Below are positions 3,197-63,605 of a stretch of DNA of 63,611 nucleotides, in pieces. Position numbers and translations under genes: made by a program. The stretch's first letter is position 1, and each line of letters starts with the position of its first letter. Below the pieces are notes generated by a model. The model had not been told where the DNA came from. It saw only the letters and a list, made by a program, of their open reading frames with translations, and ran no database searches. Origin of the DNA: Pseudomonadota bacterium (GTDB lineage Bacteria; Desulfobacterota; Desulfarculia; Desulfarculales; Desulfarculaceae); the NCBI GenBank assembly GCA_018819925.1, contig JAHJPG010000069.1, positions 1 to 63,611 of the forward strand, in the 5' to 3' direction.

Positions 3197-4408
3197 ATGC
3201 GGATTTCATTAAAATCCATTGGGATGACGGTAAAGCTGCTAGCCATAGTGGCTTTGTCCGCCGGATTGATAATGTCTCCAGCCATGACCGGAGGCGTACA
3301 GGCCGAGGTCAAGAAACTCAAGATTCTGTCAAACAATCCTTTCTCTGGTAAAGCCGCATCGTGGGGATTTTCCCAGGATCGCGGGGTGGGCTTGGCCGTG
3401 GACAAGGTCAACCAAGCCGGCGGCATCAAGATCAACGGCGAAACCTACATGTGGGAAAAGATCCAATGTGACAACCGCTACATCCCCGCAGACGCGGTCT
3501 CATGCCTCAAGCGCGGCGTGGCTCAGGGAGCCAAGTTCATGTGCACCCTGGGGGGGGCGGTCACAAAACCCCAAATTCCTCTCATCAACAAAGACAAGAT
3601 AGTCACCATAGCGGCCATCGCTGGTGGAGCCGACTTTACCAACGCCAACAATAAATACCTGTTCCGCACCATGCCTTCGGCCGACCTGACCATTGCCATA
3701 GAGGGCATCAAAATCTACAAGAAACTTGGGGTCAAGAAACTCGTGCTGCTCACGGCCGACAACGTGTTGGGCCATAGCGACGCCAAAACCCTGAAAAATG
3801 CGCTCAAGGTCAACAAGATGAGCGACATTTTGGTGGCCGAGGAGTTCGTGCCCATCGATACCGGCGACTTCACCCCTGTTCTGACCCGCGTTCTCGCCAA
3901 GAACCCGGACCACATCGAGGGCGGCGCATGGCCCGCGGCCGGCCTGGCTTTGCTGATCAAACAGGCCCGTGAGCTGGGCTACAAAGGCACTTTCACAAAC
4001 CTCTCTGGCGCCCCCAAAGTTGGTCCCCTGGTCAAGATCGGCGGCAAGAAAAATGTGGAAGGCGTGATCATGCTGCGCCTTTGGCCGCCGGACCAACTGC
4101 CCACCCAAGCCTTCAAGGACTACTGGGCAGAGTACCGCAAGCTTTATAAGCAGGATCCCGGCGCCAACAGCTGGGAGAGCTACATGGCCTTCATGCATCT
4201 TTCCGCCGCGGTCGAAAAAGCCCAGAGCCTTGATCCCGATAAGATTGTAGCGGTGATGCGGGACCTGAAGATCGTCAGCCTCTTGGGCGAGTTGCAACTC
4301 ATCGGCAAGGACAACCCATTGCTGCCGGGCTACGGCATCAATAACCAGTACACCTCGCCCTTGCCGGTAACGGTGCTCAAGGACGGAAATCCGATTATCT
4401 ATAAATAA
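3197..4408 (+). CDS. ABC transporter periplasmic substrate-binding protein, LivK type
   Basis: A 403-residue type I periplasmic binding protein (Peripla_BP_6 family). A signal peptide occupies residues 1-36 and ends in VQA. The mature part carries the usual two-lobe pattern with KKLKILSNNPFSG at its start. AAGGAGG at 3183-3189 sits 7 bases before the ATG. It should capture a small solute in the periplasm and hand it to the permeases encoded immediately downstream. The sequence resembles the divergent LivK paralogues of anaerobes used for aromatic or organic acids as much as amino acids, so the ligand is open; the neighbouring amidase-type and 5-oxoprolinase-type genes favour an amide or lactam. 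Confidence 0.9.
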   Translation: MRISLKSIGMTVKLLAIVALSAGLIMSPAMTGGVQAEVKKLKILSNNPFSGKAASWGFSQDRGVGLAVDKVNQAGGIKINGETYMWEKIQCDNRYIPADAVSCLKRGVAQGAKFMCTLGGAVTKPQIPLINKDKIVTIAAIAGGADFTNANNKYLFRTMPSADLTIAIEGIKIYKKLGVKKLVLLTADNVLGHSDAKTLKNALKVNKMSDILVAEEFVPIDTGDFTPVLTRVLAKNPDHIEGGAWPAAGLALLIKQARELGYKGTFTNLSGAPKVGPLVKIGGKKNVEGVIMLRLWPPDQLPTQAFKDYWAEYRKLYKQDPGANSWESYMAFMHLSAAVEKAQSLDPDKIVAVMRDLKIVSLLGELQLIGKDNPLLPGYGINNQYTSPLPVTVLKDGNPIIYK

Positions 4409-4444: not shown

Positions 4445-4482
4445 GCCGGCCGGCACCAGTTAAAGACGTGGTGCCGGCCGGC
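4445..4482 (+). terminator. strong hairpin after livK-type gene (attenuator or mRNA-stabilising)
   Basis: A perfect 14-base inverted repeat (4445-4458 with 4469-4482, core GCCGGCCGGCACCA) encloses a 10-base loop. It is followed by a pyrimidine-rich stretch with short T runs. It lies 36 bases after the binding-protein stop and just before the permease gene, the usual place for a structure that keeps binding-protein mRNA in excess over permease mRNA. Confidence 0.65.
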
Positions 4483-20090: not shown

Positions 20091-20282
20091 CCTCCTGTCG
20101 GTGGGCCTGAGAGATTCACCCGCTCGGGGCTTGCTCCTTCGGCGGCCGGAGCCTCCGGCACTTTCCAGGAGTGTCAGGTGTTCAGCGGTCCTTTTGCCTG
20201 AGAGTTTCGGCCCCATGGCTGGCCTTGCACCTTCGGCGGCCGCTGGCCAACAATGGCCCGGCGGCGCTCTCCCGCTGATCAT
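20091..20282 (-). promoter_or_regulatory. tandem glycine riboswitch
   Basis: Read on the minus strand, the leader contains two glycine aptamers in series. Aptamer 1 (about 20278-20183) has GCGGGAGAGC, GCCGCCGAAGGTGCAA and CTCTCAGGCAAAAGGACCGC. Aptamer 2 (about 20174-20091) has GCCGCCGAAGGAGCAAGCC and TCTCAGGCCCACCGACAGG. These are the hallmark conserved segments of the class. Glycine binding would switch on expression of the gcv operon. The 3' edge can pair with sequence near the gcvT ribosome site (GGAGG/CCTCC, TCTCT/AGAGA, GGCC/GGCC), suggesting translational control. Confidence 0.95.
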
Positions 20283-20293
20283 CGATGTTCAGC

Positions 20294-22448: not shown

Positions 22449-22474
22449 CGGCCGGCTCCTGGGGGAGCCGGCCG
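22449..22474 (-). terminator. strong hairpin after tctC (attenuator or mRNA-stabilising)
   Basis: A perfect 11-base inverted repeat (22449-22459 with 22464-22474, CGGCCGGCTCC) with a 4-base loop lies between the binding-protein and membrane-subunit genes. There is no long T run, so partial termination or mRNA protection is more likely than full termination. Confidence 0.55.
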
Positions 22475-22528
22475 CCGTGGTTCGTTGGGTTATGCCAATC
22501 TCGGGGCGCCACGGCGCCCCGGATCATC

Positions 22529-23494
22529 CTAGAATTTCTTCAGGCCGACCTCTTTGAGGATGCCGCCCCAGATGCCCCAGTACTGGTCGCAAAGCTCCCG
22601 GTACTTCTTGCCGTCCAGGAAGTCGATGCTCACGTAGAGCTCATCCTTGGCTTTCTTCTGCACTTCGGGCTGGGACAAGGCGAACTTGATCGCCTCCTCG
22701 ATTTTTTTGCGAATGGGCTCGGGGGTGCCCTTGGGGAACACAGCGCCCAGGCAGGAGAACTGGCTGAAGTCGTAGCCCAGTTCCTTGAGGGTCTTGGTGT
22801 CCGGGGTCAGGGGGATGCGGTTGGCGCTCATGATGACCAGGGGCTTGAGCTTGCCGCCCTTGAACGAGGACACCGAGGCGGTGGTGGAGGTGTTGCAGGC
22901 CACCACGTGGCCGCCCAGGACTGCGGCCACCGACTTGGGGTTGCCCTTGAAGGGGATGGGGACCATCTTGACCTTCTCGTGATTGGCCAGCCAAGCCACG
23001 CCCAGGTGGTTGGTGGTGCCCAGACCAGGAGTGCCGTAGGTCGCCTTGCCCGGATTCTTGCGGGCGAAGTCGATGAGTTCCTTGAGACTGTTGAAGGGCG
23101 AGTCCTTGGCTACATACAGGACGTAGTCATAGTGCATGGGCGAGGCGATGTAGACCAGCTCCTTGGGGTCGTAGGTCAGCTTGCGCATCTGGGGAATGGT
23201 CACCAGGGTGGGCAGGTTGGCCCAGGAGAAGGTGTAGCCGTCGGGCTTGGCCTTTGCCAGGGTGGAGATGGCCACCGCGCCGCCGGAGCCGGGCTTGTTC
23301 ACCAGAATAAGCGGCTTGCCCAGATATTTTTCCATGTAGGGCGCTATGGTGCGCACGAACACGTCGGTGGTCCCGCCGGCCGACAGGGGAACGTAGGCCG
23401 TGATGGGCTTGGTGGGGTAGTCCTTGGCCAACGCAGGCACGGCCGCCAGGGCCAGGGCCAGACAGCAGGTCAGCACCACCAGCAACTTTTTCAT
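22529..23494 (-). CDS. tctC: tripartite tricarboxylate transporter substrate-binding protein TctC
   Basis: A 321-residue Bug/TctC-family binding protein. Residues 1-23 are a signal peptide ending ALA. The mature protein starts KDYPTKPITAYVPLSAGGTTD, the family signature that forms the ligand carboxylate-binding loop, and carries KPGSGGAVA. ATG at 23494 has GGGAGG about 7 bases upstream. Bug proteins usually bind organic acids. It is followed by TctB and TctA, giving a complete TTT system. Confidence 0.93.
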   Translation of the reverse strand: MKKLLVVLTCCLALALAAVPALAKDYPTKPITAYVPLSAGGTTDVFVRTIAPYMEKYLGKPLILVNKPGSGGAVAISTLAKAKPDGYTFSWANLPTLVTIPQMRKLTYDPKELVYIASPMHYDYVLYVAKDSPFNSLKELIDFARKNPGKATYGTPGLGTTNHLGVAWLANHEKVKMVPIPFKGNPKSVAAVLGGHVVACNTSTTASVSSFKGGKLKPLVIMSANRIPLTPDTKTLKELGYDFSQFSCLGAVFPKGTPEPIRKKIEEAIKFALSQPEVQKKAKDELYVSIDFLDGKKYRELCDQYWGIWGGILKEVGLKKF

Positions 23495-36686: not shown

Positions 36687-36718
36687 ACTGGCCGCGGGCG
36701 CGCTGGCCCGCCGCCAGT
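36687..36718 (-). terminator. strong hairpin after TAXI binding-protein gene
   Basis: ACTGGC-c-GCGGGC (36687-36699) pairs with GCCCGC-c-GCCAGT (36706-36718) around a 6-base loop, giving 12 pairs with one C-C mismatch. There is no T run. It lies 23 bases after the TAXI stop. Confidence 0.5.
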
Positions 36719-36740: not shown

Positions 36741-37796
36741 CTACTTGCCCACCTTCCACTCGGTTCTCCAAAGGCCGACCTCCTTCAGATACTTGGCCAC
36801 CCCTGGGTGTACCGGTACGCCCTGAACGGCGCTTATGCCCTTTTCTTGCATTTCCCGGGCAAATTTAGGGTCGGTGATGCCCCTGAAGAACTTGTGGCCC
36901 TTCTTGAAATCGGCTTGCGCCTCAGGAGAAAAGATGGTCTTTAAATATGTGTAGGCATCATCGGCCTTGACCTCCGAGCCAAAGTGCCAGCCCCACCACT
37001 CCACGCCCATCCAGGTAGTCTTACCCTTGATGCCCGTGTCCTGTTTGAAGGGCGTGGCCAGCTTTTCAAAACCGATGCCGTACTTGCCCAGTTCTGTCGC
37101 CAGCTTTTTCACCTCCGCCTCGTTGGGTTCGATAATTTTGATTTTCACCTGGGACTCGATATTCTGGGTCCAACTGGGCATGGCCTTGGCGCGGGCAACC
37201 AGATACACGCCAACGACATCCACCAAACCCGACTTCAGGGCATTGGCCGCATCCATGTAGCCCATCTGGACGTTTTTTCCCATCTTGATGTCCAGGGCCG
37301 TTAGCATGTATTTGAAGCCCTCGGATATGCCGCTACCCATCTTGCCGGGGAAGACCTTTTTACCGTTAATGTCAGTCAGGCTTTTAATGTCGTCGCGGTC
37401 GGCCCGGGTGATCCAAAAGAGGTTGGCGTCAAAGTAGTAAAACCCCTGATAAATTTTATTCTTGAGTGGCGTCTGGGCGTAAGGGCCCTTGGCGTTGAAC
37501 GCCTGCCATAAGTCCACACCGCTGCCATAGGGAATGGCGCATTTGCCTTCAGCGGCGTCCCTGAAACCGGCCACGGGCGAGGAATAGGGTATGCCCGATA
37601 TCCGCAGGCTCGAGTATTTGCTTACGGTTTTCGCGATAGTGGTTCCAACGGCATAGCCAGCGGTGCCTTCGCGGTTGATGTTCATGATCAAGGTGTCGCC
37701 CGCGGAAGCCTTGACCGGAATGACCAAGGCCCCCGCGGCCAAGGCCAAGCCAACCATCCAAATGGAAATGTTCATTTTGAGGCCTTTGAATAACAT
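36741..37796 (-). CDS. TAXI family TRAP transporter solute-binding protein
   Basis: A 351-residue periplasmic protein. A signal peptide covers residues 1-28 (ending ASA), and the mature part begins DTLIMNINREGTAGYAVGTTIA, the TAXI-type N terminus. Further family features are GKKVFPGKMGSG and the C-terminal HPGVAKYLKEVGLW. ATG at 37796 has AAGGAAGGGAAG upstream. It delivers solute to the fused 4TM/12TM permease encoded just upstream in the same operon. TAXI systems commonly carry glutamate or other dicarboxylates; within this cluster a dicarboxylic acid is likely. Confidence 0.9.
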   Translation of the reverse strand: MLFKGLKMNISIWMVGLALAAGALVIPVKASAGDTLIMNINREGTAGYAVGTTIAKTVSKYSSLRISGIPYSSPVAGFRDAAEGKCAIPYGSGVDLWQAFNAKGPYAQTPLKNKIYQGFYYFDANLFWITRADRDDIKSLTDINGKKVFPGKMGSGISEGFKYMLTALDIKMGKNVQMGYMDAANALKSGLVDVVGVYLVARAKAMPSWTQNIESQVKIKIIEPNEAEVKKLATELGKYGIGFEKLATPFKQDTGIKGKTTWMGVEWWGWHFGSEVKADDAYTYLKTIFSPEAQADFKKGHKFFRGITDPKFAREMQEKGISAVQGVPVHPGVAKYLKEVGLWRTEWKVGK

Positions 37797-37891
37797 GAGC
37801 TTCCCTTCCTTATTAAAAGATACGCTGATTCCCTCAGGTGACCCTGAGAGGCGTTGCCCACCACCATGAGTAACTTTTAAAAGCATTCTCC

Positions 37892-39823
37892 TTATGCCGG
37901 TTTCGCGCCTAGCTTCTTTTTCCAAAGAACGGCCATGAAACTGATAACGATTACGTTCATCACCATGGAGCCCCAGGCTAGGCCAGCATGTGACGAGAAG
38001 AGGGTAAAGAAGCCCAAGACCAGCAAGAGGACCCTCAGTCCGGCGGCCATTATTCCGGGATATTTAATTTGCAAACCGATGGTGATGGCGATGATTCCCA
38101 CCCCGACGCGTATGAAGGCCACAAGGCCATCTCCGTCAAGCTTGAGTAGGTTTGGTTGGAAAATGAAACAGAAGGGCAGCAGGTACTTGGCCACGCCAAG
38201 CTTCATGGCCTCCCAAGCGGTTTCCATATACCCAGATCCGCTGAGGCCGCAGGCGATGGGGATGATACCGGCCACCGGCGGAGTGATGGCGGAAAGCATG
38301 GCGAAATAGAAGATGGCGAAGTGAGTGGCCAATTCCGGGATTCCGAAGGACTGCAGGGCCGGCGCGGCTACGATAATGGTGAGAATGTAGGCGGCCACAG
38401 TGGTCACCGCCATCCCGAAAAGAATGCAAACCAGCATTACCAATAAAATAACCGGCACCATCTGGTTGCCGCCAAGTTCCACCAGGCCAGAGGACAGGCG
38501 GGTGGAGAGGCCCGAACCCACCAAAATCTTGACAACGATGCCTAAGCAAGCCAGCAACAATATGATGGGTGCCGTTCCGGCAGCGGCCCGCACGGCCCCA
38601 TCGATCACGGTGTCGGCCAATTCTTTGGCCGGCTTGCGACGCGAAGGAACCGCCACGCGCAATAAAATTTGCGCGGCCAAATAGACTGCTACGCCGTAGA
38701 ATCCGCAGGTCATTGCGTCCAACTTGGGCATAATCAGCAAATAGAAAATGGTCCCCATGCCCAAGGCCAGGCAGAGGCCATCCGCAAGTGATCCCTGCCC
38801 GGCAACATCTTGATCCTTCTCTGATGCGCGCTTGATGTTATCGGTCGGCTTCATGTAGAGGAGGGTTATGATGTAGACAGCGACCATTATGGAAAAGTAG
38901 AAAAGAATCGCCGGGAACACACCCGCGACCACGACGTCCAAATATTGAATGCCTAGATACTCGGCAATCACAAACGCGGTGGTGCCCATGATGGGCGGCA
39001 TGATCTGGCTACCGGCCGAAGCAGTCGCCTCTATGCCTCCCGCGACCTTGGGTGGGATGCCGTGGTTTTTCATGAGGGGAATGGTAAAGGCGCCGGTGCC
39101 GGCCAGGTTGGCTGCCGCGCTGCCAGTAAAAGAGCCGAATATCATGCTGGCCAGCACGCTGATCTGCGGGATCATGCGCTCGTTTCTGCGAGACAGCCGG
39201 CGCACTGAATCAATGACGTAATCCATCCCGCCAAATACTCGTACAAAACCGGCGAAGATGATGAAGATGGCTACGTACTTGAGCCCCACTTGGGGCAGCA
39301 TGCCGAATATGCCGCTGAAACTAAGTGATGTCTCCTGCAGAAGCCTCTCCAGGCGCATGCCGGGATGGTACAAAAAACCCGGGAAGAACTGGCCCAGGAT
39401 GCCGTAGATAAGGAAGGCGGTTACAACCAGGGGGATGGTCAAGCCATAGCAAACGTAAGTGTAGAAAATCGTCAATATGATCAGCAGTCCGGCCAGGACG
39501 AAATCCAGGGTGTTGTTTGCCCCGTCTCTTTCATAGAGCAGAGTCGGGTATTCAAGGTAGAAGTAAAGGCCTATGAACACCCAGATCAGCACCAGCAAAG
39601 TGGCGATACCGCCGGAGAGCCAGGCGCCTAAGCGTGCGGTGAAAAGCCTGACCTGGTTGAGGGTGACGAAGATGGCGGATAGCGCGATAAGCCCCACCAC
39701 CACCTGCTGGGGGGAGGCGAAATAGGTAATTATGAAATAACCGACGTAGGCGACGTAGAAAACGGACAAGACTTTTATTAGCCAGTCCCGAAATTCGCTG
39801 GCTTTTGATGGTTCTTTGGCCAT
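37892..39823 (-). CDS. TRAP transporter permease, fused 4TM/12TM subunits
   Basis: A 643-residue inner-membrane protein combining the small (DctQ-like, about residues 15-140) and large (DctM-like) TRAP membrane subunits, as is standard for TAXI systems. Conserved pieces include SGSFTGSAAANLAGTGAFTIPLMK-type sequence near residue 220 and the repeated VAGIIPIACGLSGSGY near 535. Numerous hydrophobic helices span the chain. It works with the TAXI binding protein as a sodium-coupled importer. It lies 69 bases after the thiolase gene. Confidence 0.93.
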   Translation of the reverse strand: MAKEPSKASEFRDWLIKVLSVFYVAYVGYFIITYFASPQQVVVGLIALSAIFVTLNQVRLFTARLGAWLSGGIATLLVLIWVFIGLYFYLEYPTLLYERDGANNTLDFVLAGLLIILTIFYTYVCYGLTIPLVVTAFLIYGILGQFFPGFLYHPGMRLERLLQETSLSFSGIFGMLPQVGLKYVAIFIIFAGFVRVFGGMDYVIDSVRRLSRRNERMIPQISVLASMIFGSFTGSAAANLAGTGAFTIPLMKNHGIPPKVAGGIEATASAGSQIMPPIMGTTAFVIAEYLGIQYLDVVVAGVFPAILFYFSIMVAVYIITLLYMKPTDNIKRASEKDQDVAGQGSLADGLCLALGMGTIFYLLIMPKLDAMTCGFYGVAVYLAAQILLRVAVPSRRKPAKELADTVIDGAVRAAAGTAPIILLLACLGIVVKILVGSGLSTRLSSGLVELGGNQMVPVILLVMLVCILFGMAVTTVAAYILTIIVAAPALQSFGIPELATHFAIFYFAMLSAITPPVAGIIPIACGLSGSGYMETAWEAMKLGVAKYLLPFCFIFQPNLLKLDGDGLVAFIRVGVGIIAITIGLQIKYPGIMAAGLRVLLLVLGFFTLFSSHAGLAWGSMVMNVIVISFMAVLWKKKLGAKPA

Positions 39824-46401: not shown

Positions 46402-46431
46402 AATATATTAATGTTGTCGACAATATGTCAA
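46402..46431 (-). promoter_or_regulatory. GntR promoter with internal operator
   Basis: On the minus strand TTGACA (46431-46426), an 18-base spacer and TATATT (46407-46402) form a good sigma-70 promoter. The perfect palindrome TTGTCGACAA (46414-46423) fills the spacer and matches the FadR/VanR-type TNGTNNNACNA pattern. A related half-site (GGTAGACAAC) lies at 46531-46540 nearer the divergent gene. Repressor binding would block RNA polymerase directly. Confidence 0.65.
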
Positions 46432-49597: not shown

Positions 49598-49780
49598 TTT
49601 TTATTCACGAAAACGATGAGCGGACAATTTTAAATCCCGCAGCAAAATTATTAGTTCGTTATGCATCCCTGAAGCATAGCCAGGCTTTGCCGCTTTGCAT
49701 GGTTTCAACAAGAGATGGAGGGAGGCACGGGGATGCCGGCGCCTGCAAGTTTGCATTGTTATAGTGGAAAGGAGCCCATA

Positions 49781-50794
49781 ATGGAAAAGTTGACAGTGGC
49801 CAAGCGTCTTGTGGGGTGTTTGATAATCACATTATGTCTAATCAGCATGTTAAGCACGCAGGTCTTTGCGCAGACGCGAACGTTGAAACTCGCTACGTTA
49901 TATTCACCAGGCAGGGAGCTTTACGAGACCGTTAAATATTTTGCCGACGAGGTAGAAAAACGAACAAAGGGCGAGGTCAAATTCAAAATTTTCCCAGGTA
50001 ACTCACTGGTCCCCGCCAAACAAGCCTTGTCCAGTGTACATAACGGAGTGGTTGATTCCGCCTTCGTGCCTGGGGCCTATGAGCAGTCCCTGTGGCCTTT
50101 GACTGGCATGCTAATGACTTTTGGGGCGCCCAACATCACCTATCAAAAATGGCGCACCATCCATGACCCCATTCGGGATATATTGAACAAAAACCTAAAA
50201 ATAAATGTGGTTATTGTAAGCATGCCCCATGTTTTGCAATACCTTTTCTATTCAAAAGATCCTCTGACCGGGACTCTAAAAGACTTTAAAAACACCATGG
50301 TCAGAAGCGCGGGAGGCGCATACGATATTTCCTTCAAGGCACTGGGATGCGCTCCCGTAAAGATCCCCGCCAGCGAGACCTATATGGCTCTGCAAAAGGG
50401 AACTATTGACAGCGGTTGGAATATTTATGGCCGATACGTGGGGGCCAAACTGTATGAGGTGGCACCCCATGTGGTAGTCATACCCAAAGGGATGATCATC
50501 TGTGGGCAATACTTTGTAATCAACAAGGCGGTTTGGGAAAGCCTTTCTCCCAAGAACAGAAATGTGATCATGGAGGTGGGCAAGGATGTGGTGGCCTACA
50601 CCAACGATAGGTCGGCAGCCTCGGATCAAAACGTATTAAACAAAAAATTGCCACAGCTTGGCATCAAGCCCACGATCATGTCTACCGAGGTGAATCAGAA
50701 ACTACTGGAAAAGCTTGCGCCCACATGGGGGCCGGTGATTAGTAAAAACGGCAAGCAAGGCCAGGAAATCGCTAAGATCCTGGGAGTCCGTTGA
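49781..50794 (+). CDS. TRAP transporter solute-binding protein, DctP family
   Basis: A 337-residue DctP-type periplasmic protein. Signal peptide at residues 1-30 (ending VFAQ). The mature chain shows KLATLYSPGRELYETVKYFADEV-like family sequence, FPGNSLVPAKQALSSVHNGVVD near residue 70 and SETYMALQKGTIDSGWN near 205, the conserved ligand-carboxylate region. ATG at 49781 has AAAGGAG 7 bases upstream. It supplies the DctQ/DctM pair encoded next, after a hairpin. The substrate is probably an organic acid that the CoA ligase downstream activates. Confidence 0.93.
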   Translation: MEKLTVAKRLVGCLIITLCLISMLSTQVFAQTRTLKLATLYSPGRELYETVKYFADEVEKRTKGEVKFKIFPGNSLVPAKQALSSVHNGVVDSAFVPGAYEQSLWPLTGMLMTFGAPNITYQKWRTIHDPIRDILNKNLKINVVIVSMPHVLQYLFYSKDPLTGTLKDFKNTMVRSAGGAYDISFKALGCAPVKIPASETYMALQKGTIDSGWNIYGRYVGAKLYEVAPHVVVIPKGMIICGQYFVINKAVWESLSPKNRNVIMEVGKDVVAYTNDRSAASDQNVLNKKLPQLGIKPTIMSTEVNQKLLEKLAPTWGPVISKNGKQGQEIAKILGVR

Positions 50795-50809: not shown

Positions 50810-50835
50810 AGTGGCGCCCCGCAAGGGGCGCCACT
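50810..50835 (+). terminator. strong GNRA-looped hairpin after dctP
   Basis: AGTGGCGCCCC (50810-50820) pairs perfectly over 11 bases with GGGGCGCCACT (50825-50835) around a GCAA tetraloop. It lies 15 bases after the dctP stop and 150 bases before dctQ. There is no T run. Confidence 0.6.
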
Positions 50836-50983
50836 TCCATATAGACACTAAAAGTCAATGTCTGAGACGTATTTTGTAGAGGGTAAATAACTGCGAAAAC
50901 ACGATTTTGGCGCCGCTGGCGGGCCGCTTTATACCGCCCCGCCAGCGGCATTTAAATGCCCCAAGCTAGAGCGGAAAATTGAC

Positions 50984-51478
50984 ATGTTTAAAATAATTAA
51001 TCGCATCAACAGTGTTGCCGATTACGTCAACGCCGTTCTTTTTGCGGTTATAGCTTTTGGCGTTTTGGTGGCGGTTTTCGGGCGCTACCTTTTTCGAATT
51101 CCAATACCAGCCGCCATGGAGTTGGCATATTTTGCCATGCTTTGGTGCGCCTTTCTCAAAACCGGTCAGGCCTTGTTTGAAGACCGGCACATTGGTATGG
51201 CCTTGCTCAAAGGTAGACTTCACGGCAAGGCCGAAGCGTCAGTAGGCATAATAATTAATGCTGTTGTGTTGGTCCCTTCTCTTTACATGGGAGCTTACGC
51301 CAGCAAGATGGCTTGGGAGGCGTGGATTTTCGGTTGGCGGACATCGGGCGGGCTTCCAATGCCACAGTGGGCACTTTATGGCGCTATGGCTTTAGGCTCT
51401 TTTTATTTGGTTTTAATTGCAGGTTATAAAATTTGGGGACATATCACTCTTATAATCGGGAAAAACAATGGACGCTAG
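50984..51478 (+). CDS. TRAP transporter small permease, DctQ family
   Basis: A 164-residue membrane protein with four hydrophobic segments and the DctQ pattern (NAVLFAVIAFGVLVAVFGRY; AMELAYFAMLWCAFLKTG; EDRHIGMALL). It joins DctP and DctM in the importer. Its 3' end overlaps dctM by 11 bases. The ribosome site (GAGCGGAAA) is weak. The GC content is lower than in most of the window. Confidence 0.88.
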   Translation: MFKIINRINSVADYVNAVLFAVIAFGVLVAVFGRYLFRIPIPAAMELAYFAMLWCAFLKTGQALFEDRHIGMALLKGRLHGKAEASVGIIINAVVLVPSLYMGAYASKMAWEAWIFGWRTSGGLPMPQWALYGAMALGSFYLVLIAGYKIWGHITLIIGKNNGR

Positions 51479-62246: not shown

Positions 62247-62313
62247 CTTTTAATTTTCAAGAACAATATTGTCAACAAAAAAATTACATATTTGACCAAA
62301 ATTTTGTTGACAA
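62247..62313 (-). promoter_or_regulatory. lyase-mutase operon promoter with paired TTGTxxACAA sites
   Basis: On the minus strand TTGACA (62275-62270) and TAAAAG (62252-62247) with a 17-base spacer form a promoter whose -35 lies inside TTGTTGACAA (62269-62278 on either strand). A second copy, TTGTTGACAA, lies at 62304-62313, 35 bases away. The pattern matches the TTGTCGACAA operator found before the FCD regulator at 45624. No regulator gene is adjacent in view. Confidence 0.5.
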
Positions 62314-62381
62314 AATATGGCCGGGTGTATTTTACTGGTCCCCAGTTGAAGCCAACGGGATATTTCCTAGTGGAGCAACTA

Positions 62382-62411: not shown

Positions 62412-62546
62412 CAGCAGGCACCTGGGAGGCGGCAAAAGGGGAGTGCCTACGAGTTTGGTCCCCGGGGCAGGTGGAGCCAATTGGGTCGTCAACAGGACTC
62501 GCGCCCTTGGGAGGGTGCATCTAAAAAACGGCGGGAGGAGGGTTAC

Positions 62547-63560
62547 ATGGGCATGAAGGGGAGCAGGCGCCTGCTATCGGTAGTGCTGGCCATGTTGTTG
62601 GCCATAGGTTTGACCGGCAGTGTCGCCTGGAGTGGGGAAACGGTCCTGCGCTTCCAGGTGAACTACGCCGGCACGAGCAAGGGCGGGGCCAGCATGCGCT
62701 ATTTTGCCGATCAGGTTGCCAAGGAGAGCGGCGGGGCGTTGAAATGCCAACTGTTCTTCGCCGGCCAAATCCTTAAAACCAAAGAGGCCTTTTCGGCTCT
62801 GCAAAAGGGAATGGTTGATGGCTTGTACTCAGCCCTTTTGTATTACGGAGGCATAGTCAAGGAGGCCAGCTGGGAATGGCTGCCTTTTACTTGGCAAGAC
62901 CCGACCCAGGTCCTGGATTTGTACTACAAACACGGCTTGCTTGAATTGATGCAGCAGGCGTTGGCTCCTCATGGGGTGCAGTATCTGGGCGCCATCCCAA
63001 TGGGCACGTTGGGTTTTTTGACGAGATTCCCCGTGGAAAATCTGGGCGATTTTAAGGGTAAGAAAATTAGGGGCGCCGGGCCCCAGGCCTCGGTGATCAA
63101 GTTGCTGGGAGGCACTCCGGTATCCCTGGCGGCGGCCGAGCAATACACCGCCTTGCAAAGAGGCACCATCGAGGGCACCATTTACCCTTGGTATACGGTG
63201 GGGGCGTACAAATTTTATGAAGTAATAGACTATATTATCACTCCAGGAGTGTATTCTCCTTGCGTGATCGACCTGATGATGAACCGCAAATCCTGGGAAC
63301 GGCTATCTACCGCGGAAAGGCAGGCGATAAGCCGGGCCGCAGTTAACACCGTAAAGTGGACTGCGGGAGAAAATGCGGCTTGGGACCAGGATGGGCTTGC
63401 CGTAACCGCGAAGCACAAAGTCAAAATCATTAAGCTTTCCGACCAGGACATGAAGCAGCTGCGCAAGGCAACCAAGCCCATGTGGGACAAGGTGGCGGCC
63501 CGTAGCGAGCTTTCCGGCAAGGCGGTCAAGATTCTAAGAGAATATTTAAAGGCCGAATAA
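62547..63560 (+). CDS. TRAP transporter solute-binding protein, DctP family
   Basis: A 337-residue DctP-type periplasmic protein with a signal peptide (residues 1-28, LLAIGLTGSVAWSG). The conserved pieces are FADQVAKESGGALKCQLFF, GQILKTKEAFSALQKGMVDG and AAEQYTALQRGTIEGTIYPW. ATG at 62547 follows GGAGGAGGG; ATG at 62553 is an alternative. It is divergent from the lyase-mutase operon, whose substrate it probably delivers. Its membrane subunits should lie beyond the right edge. It differs clearly from the DctP at 49781. Confidence 0.93.
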   Translation: MGMKGSRRLLSVVLAMLLAIGLTGSVAWSGETVLRFQVNYAGTSKGGASMRYFADQVAKESGGALKCQLFFAGQILKTKEAFSALQKGMVDGLYSALLYYGGIVKEASWEWLPFTWQDPTQVLDLYYKHGLLELMQQALAPHGVQYLGAIPMGTLGFLTRFPVENLGDFKGKKIRGAGPQASVIKLLGGTPVSLAAAEQYTALQRGTIEGTIYPWYTVGAYKFYEVIDYIITPGVYSPCVIDLMMNRKSWERLSTAERQAISRAAVNTVKWTAGENAAWDQDGLAVTAKHKVKIIKLSDQDMKQLRKATKPMWDKVAARSELSGKAVKILREYLKAE

Positions 63561-63571
63561 CCTAAATTATC

Positions 63572-63605
63572 GCGTGCCGGCCGGCGTAATTGCCGGCCGG
63601 CACGC
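63572..63605 (+). terminator. strong hairpin after the second dctP gene
   Basis: A perfect 14-base inverted repeat (63572-63585 with 63592-63605, GCGTGCCGGCCGGC) with a 6-base loop. Its GTGCCGGCCGGC core is shared with the hairpin after the LivK-type gene at 4445-4482. The window ends 6 bases later. Confidence 0.6.

Follow-up and report, generated by a model that had tools for sequence, protein, structure and literature searches.

The window analysed here is a stretch of 63,611 nt that represents one entire contig (C65, GenBank JAHJPG010000069.1) of a 4.03-Mb draft genome in 145 contigs assigned to the Desulfarculaceae (GCA_018819925.1). Four genome-wide family searches placed exactly five genes for transporter solute-binding proteins (SBPs) on this contig, namely a livK-type gene, a tctC gene, a TAXI-type gene and two dctP genes, and each of the five is followed by a strong GC hairpin (Table 1). 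The initial annotation had described such a hairpin after every one of these genes, with perfect or near-perfect stems of 11-14 bases and no long T run, and its description was confirmed by the Pfam identities of the genes, by inverted repeats and by folding: four of the stems are perfect (14, 14, 11 and 11 nt), the TAXI stem carries one mismatch, and none of the five is followed by a long T run. Two further hairpins, the proximal one after tctC and the second in the dctP-dctQ gap, had been overlooked.

Table 1. Binding-protein genes, associated permease gene and hairpins in the window.
Feature	Position	Strand	Details
livK-type SBP gene	3197..4408	+	Pfam Peripla_BP_6 1.8e-45
livK-livH gap hairpin	4445..4482	+	perfect 14-bp stem, -34.9 kcal/mol, z -6.7
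tctC-tctB gap distal hairpin	22449..22474	-	perfect 11-nt arms, -34.8 kcal/mol, z -4.0
tctC proximal hairpin	22502..22521	-	7-8 bp, directly past tctC stop
tctC SBP gene	22529..23494 or 23512	-	Pfam TctC 4.2e-55
Hairpin past TAXI gene	36687..36718	-	12 pairs, one 1x1 mismatch, -26.1 kcal/mol, z -3.8
TAXI-type SBP gene	36741..37796 or 37925	-	Pfam NMT1_3 8.1e-20
Fused DctM permease gene	37892-39823		upstream of TAXI SBP gene; Pfam DctM 5.7e-59
dctP SBP gene 1	49715..50794	+	Pfam DctP 1.8e-36
dctP1 hairpin	50810..50835	+	perfect 11-bp stem, 15 nt past stop, -25.5 kcal/mol, z -3.3
Second dctP-dctQ gap hairpin	50912..50949	+	15-nt arms, 93% complementary; dctQ at 50984
dctP SBP gene 2	62481..63560	+	Pfam DctP 5.7e-47; stop 51 nt before contig end
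dctP2 hairpin	63572..63605	+	perfect 14-bp stem, 11 nt past stop, -36.2 kcal/mol, z -6.1

The list of 20 inverted repeats in the window includes six with non-overlapping arms, and five of these six are G+C-rich, all five lying after an SBP gene. Within the window a fold at or below -25 kcal/mol followed 4/4 SBP genes vs 2/49 other genes, a count that omits the fifth SBP gene, for which the contig end leaves too little downstream DNA. The gene next after the TAXI hairpin is FrhB-like, and the TAXI SBP gene and the fused DctM-type permease gene (36741-39823) sit in a row with genes of acyl-CoA metabolism. At the gathering score no Rfam family matched at the hairpin sites, the single match in the window being an ordinary glycine riboswitch (RF00504, 67.8 bits; 20176-20284, minus strand) upstream of a gcvT-gcvH-gcvP operon. 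The window also contains palindromes with TTGTCNACAA-like cores at 62266-62316 and 46411-46426. Two of them precede dctP2 and a third precedes the gene for a GntR/FCD regulator, and an FCD-type regulator may use them as operators; a loose TTGTCNACAA-like pattern showed no excess over chance when counted within the window.

Hairpins after binding-protein genes across the genome

Across the whole genome 71 SBP genes were found, belonging to four unrelated families (23 DctP, 29 Peripla_BP_6, 4 TctC and 15 TAXI/NMT1_3), a set in which we kept two of the 29 Peripla_BP_6 matches that are probable gene pieces and one of the 15 TAXI matches that lies under the family cut-off. These four families alone thus give a 4-Mb genome about 70 SBP genes. 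Genes were called with a dicodon model in 47 stretches around the SBP matches and, after removal of duplicates, the 71 SBP genes were compared with 719 other genes by folding 46-nt windows over the first 150 nt past each stop codon, with z values calculated against dinucleotide-preserving shuffles. The same folding pipeline applied to the gap between malE and malF in E. coli K-12, whose intergenic structure consists of repeated REP elements, gave -22.0 with a z of -3.2, so that the pipeline also finds a known case.

A hairpin at or below -20 kcal/mol directly past the stop codon was present for 57 of the 71 SBP genes. The enrichment after SBP genes over other gaps, which the initial annotation had proposed as a check, was strong: in co-directional gaps of 30-150 nt, 34/49 SBP genes reached z<=-3 vs 12/182 other genes, where gap-length matching gives an expectation of 3.7. 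In the same gaps a fold at or below -25 kcal/mol followed 44/49 SBP genes vs 22/182 others, and an uninterrupted stem of at least 10 bp followed 41/49 vs 15/182. When all gaps of at least 25 nt were considered, 57/63 SBP genes vs 151/408 others reached -20 kcal/mol, and 43/63 vs 51/408 had z<-3. Since the gene caller missed some genes, including the window's dctQ, we added a fixed 100-nt window blind to the next gene call, in which z<=-3 was reached by 43/70 SBP genes vs 70/715 others, or by 40/66 vs 67/666 when the window's own genes were subtracted. Each of the four families was enriched separately by this measure (DctP 14/22, Peripla_BP_6 16/29, TctC 3/4 and TAXI 10/15, vs 70/715 others), in support of the suggestion that the hairpins are a common device across unrelated transporter families.

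Eight of the 14 SBP genes lacking a hairpin of -20 have a gap of less than 25 nt. The held-out SBP families SBP_bac_5 and NMT1 showed a weaker fit, with two of five genes positive (L140 and L149; negative, L139, L141 and L142); NMT1 gave 11 matches, of which L142, L149 and L152 were folded, L152 being excluded because it has no downstream DNA, and the eight remaining matches overlap genes that the TAXI count includes. A Pfam look-up of 20 of the 32 co-directional control genes with z<-3 returned mostly metabolic enzymes before wide gaps, and no SBP was present among these 20.

The hairpin profile climbs from -10 to +10 around the stop codon and is again at background by about +70. On the 5' side there was no SBP excess (12/71 SBP genes vs 169/719 others), and inside genes SBP genes were not above others. 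Permease and ATPase genes like the window's components rarely carried a strong fold (3/25 at or below -25 kcal/mol in co-directional gaps of 30-150 nt), and 91/135 such genes have a gap of less than 25 nt or overlap the next gene, whilst exported non-SBP genes, chosen by a crude signal-peptide rule, gave 2/17 at or below -25 and 0/17 at z<=-3. The 5' side, permease genes and exported proteins in general were thereby ruled out as the source of the signal.

Where a permease or ATPase gene comes next, 39/51 SBP genes have a hairpin at or below -20 kcal/mol, and the hairpin is kept in 18/20 SBP genes where none comes next, including 8/8 of those with a permease or ATPase gene upstream, which argues that the element is a feature of the SBP gene itself. 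In consequence, the cross-family device envisaged in the initial annotation is upheld but its placement at the junction between SBP and permease is not, given these 18 genes and the window's TAXI gene, which follows its permease.

The SBP hairpins usually have 10-18 bp and usually start 5-25 nt past the stop codon, with the stem beginning at a median of 13 nt and a median longest uninterrupted stem of 12 bp. In most cases a U tract directly after the stem is absent, with at least five T in the next 8 nt for only 6/53. Operon-end hairpins in the genome have equally T-poor tails (p 0.43), so that missing T runs cannot tell a stabiliser from a terminator here; there are hints of U-independent 3' ends in this lineage. 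Hairpins of convergent and operon-end gaps in the 47 stretches had no more T past the stem than SBP hairpins.

The core GTGCCGGCCGGC that the initial annotation had reported as shared is indeed present in two of the window's stems, although sharing of this length is no more than random hairpins give: a 12-base word was common to three pairs among the 57 SBP hairpins, where random hairpins of like make-up give 3.2. Word sharing among the 57 reaches 12 bases at most, about like random hairpins, and shorter common words are somewhat more frequent than among random hairpins, which a common GC-rich make-up would lead one to expect; GGCCGG or CCGGCC occurs in 21/57. The form GCCGGCCGGC-loop-GCCGGCCGGC occurs at only two places in 4.03 Mb, both of them stems of the window.

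Conservation among relatives

Orthologues of livK with 86-92% identity were found in 5/7 congeners, and the hairpin stands at the same place in all five, one being truncated by the end of its own contig. In the alignment of the six sequences 98.7% of 77 cells pair, and seven cells, in three pairs, have changed on both sides; when the partner is shifted by 1-3 columns, pairing falls to 24-50%. None of 500 shuffles matched the covariation score, although this is a small set of related sequences and the shuffles ignore relatedness. Pairing of the livK hairpin is thus conserved within the genus. Both the proximal and the distal stem of the tctC gap are retained in 4/4 congeneric orthologues, and in this gap (five sequences) pair changes were not above shuffles, 203/500 of which attained the score. 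For the window's dctP2 the genus yielded only distant relatives (38-42% identity, in 4/7 other genomes), which are followed by stems of -24.9 to -35.0 with z values of -2.5 to -4.5.

The best DctP matches carried a fold at or below -25 kcal/mol at 18/26 loci from the family and at 11/29 from the phylum, and z<=-3 at 14/26 and 13/29 respectively; these loci are best-scoring matches rather than a random sample and have no gap-matched controls, three of 29 family loci were excluded for too little downstream DNA, and one counted locus is probably in the wrong frame. One DctP query gave, as the closest named records, a Desulfarculaceae MAG and a Deltaproteobacteria MAG, with three loci at 37-39% identity, which tentatively puts the genome in or near the Desulfarculaceae. 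The DctP genes of the three named relatives gave two cases of z<=-3 and one of z -2.7. For plasmid-borne DctP genes we took seven of the 40 records listed, out of 505 with a match, and in two of the seven the gap does not exceed 11 nt. Among the five that were folded, Caballeronia and Azospirillum reached z<=-3 and Sinorhizobium (z -1.9), Tistrella (-1.6) and Ilyobacter (0.0) did not, the Ilyobacter stem having a long loop and being wider than the 46-nt folding window.

Proposed function and alternative explanations

Hairpins after SBP genes are already known as a device of ABC importers (PMC9045158; PMC5927463). In Ruminiclostridium cellulolyticum, U-poor hairpins with long stems after SBP genes end transcripts with an efficiency of 20.7-96.1%; relative to canonical terminators these clostridial structures are poorer in U and have longer GC stems, part of the transcripts end there, stem energy is argued to set upstream stability, and at least 15 such internal SBP terminators are predicted in E. 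coli (PMC9045158). According to PMC5927463, it is the SBP gene that is stabilised in five ABC operons of E. coli regulated by decay; protective structures, in the same paper's account, lie generally within coding regions. The hairpins described here are like the clostridial internal terminators in that the stem-loop stands right past an SBP gene within a transporter operon and has a long GC stem and few U; unlike the clostridial cases, which belong to ABC importers of Gram-positive bacteria and were tested with reporters (PMC9045158), they come from a GC-rich, Desulfarculaceae-like genome and are known from its sequence. The 29 Peripla_BP_6 genes correspond to the ABC importers of that work, and 42 of our 71 SBP genes (DctP, TctC and TAXI) do not. 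The hairpins also resemble E. coli malE-malF, where a structure 3' of the SBP gene goes with an SBP message that is kept and a permease message that is lost (PMC5927463). Each stem here is intergenic and, unlike the repeated REP elements of malE-malF, unique, and the stems are not copies of one palindromic repeat as in 3' stabilisers of the REP/BIME type. With canonical Rho-independent terminators they share a GC stem-loop past the stop codon, and they differ from these in mostly having no U tract, in their longer stems and in often lying inside operons; operon-end hairpins in this genome also have no U tract.

Our preferred reading, to which we assign a probability of roughly three in four, is that the hairpins act as leaky, U-poor terminators combined with a barrier to 3' exonucleases, and so would yield a separate, stable SBP message. 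Every SBP gene would come with a 3'-end element of its own in the form of a GC hairpin poor in U, at which part of transcription would stop, or to which longer transcripts would be trimmed back by 3'-5' exonucleases, or both, and the stem would then shield the SBP message upstream. The predicted outcome is plentiful, stable SBP mRNA together with less read-through mRNA for the permease and later genes, whilst for an SBP gene that closes an operon this hairpin would simply be the operon's 3' end. What the sequences show is the presence, position and enrichment of the hairpins, irrespective of sequence family, and the conserved pairing of the livK hairpin; partial termination, exonuclease protection and the resulting SBP excess are what we infer, and the device probably serves to produce more binding protein than membrane channel.

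The closest competitor is one arm of this reading taken by itself, a purely differential stability in which nothing terminates at the stem and full-length mRNA is cut and decayed from its 3' end back to the hairpin, like in E. coli malE-malF. It has a substantial chance of being correct, a little short of even: the tails are U-poor, the stems are very stable and near the stop codon, the malE-malF gap scores alike in our pipeline, and unequal operon output based on decay is described in E. coli, with the SBP gene stabilised (PMC5927463), and against it stands the termination at comparable U-poor stems in clostridia (PMC9045158). It is improbable that we are dealing with ordinary terminators of any gene before a wide gap, with gap length or GC content behind the link to SBP genes. 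Operon-end controls do often have hairpins (29/94 convergent gaps at or below -25 kcal/mol) and SBP gaps exceed control gaps in length and in GC content (0.666 vs 0.577), but the excess at z<=-3 is far above that given by gap-length matching, most SBP stems precede a co-directional gene at short distance, and GC content is accounted for since the shuffles behind each z value preserve the dinucleotides of the gap in question. Gap length and GC content were on these grounds ruled out as the source of the signal.

Slightly less probable still are regulated attenuators or protein-binding dyads that would act on permease or metabolic genes lying downstream, an idea to which the two window gaps with two stems in series lend something, and against which stand the lack of Rfam family matches at the sites and the persistence of the hairpin where no permease or ATPase gene comes next. 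The 12-base core common to two window stems and the recurrent GGCCGG or CCGGCC might recall a dispersed palindromic repeat (REP/BIME-like) that happened to insert past SBP genes; with the shared form confined to those two places in the genome and word sharing at the random level, this possibility is very remote and we reject it.

Extending the favoured reading of a leaky terminator and exonuclease barrier beyond this genome, we suggest, tentatively and with some doubt, that a 3' hairpin may be near-obligatory for SBP genes in the Desulfarculaceae and looser in the phylum, for any family (ABC, TRAP, TAXI or TTT) and with any downstream gene, that it may have evolved anew for each gene, and that hairpins without a U tract may be general mRNA ends in this lineage. 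The use of such hairpins for TRAP, TAXI and TTT transporters is an extension of the published ABC-importer device. Neither this use nor so complete a coverage of one genome was found in the open-licence literature searched, and the main text of a TRAP/TTT review (PMC5812351) has neither 'stem-loop' nor 'intergenic'. We do not claim the TRAP case as unreported, since a Rhodobacter capsulatus dctPQM paper of 1997 reportedly may mention stem-loops in the dctP-dctQ gap.

The present analysis offers a genome-wide, quantitative case in which an unequal output of transporter parts would be written in 3' hairpins, in an uncultured and transporter-rich lineage, and it would carry a device that has been tested for ABC importers over to tripartite transporters driven by ions. 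Should the pattern be general, hairpins past stop codons could aid the recognition of SBP-like genes needed in excess, and the hairpins could serve as graded natural parts.
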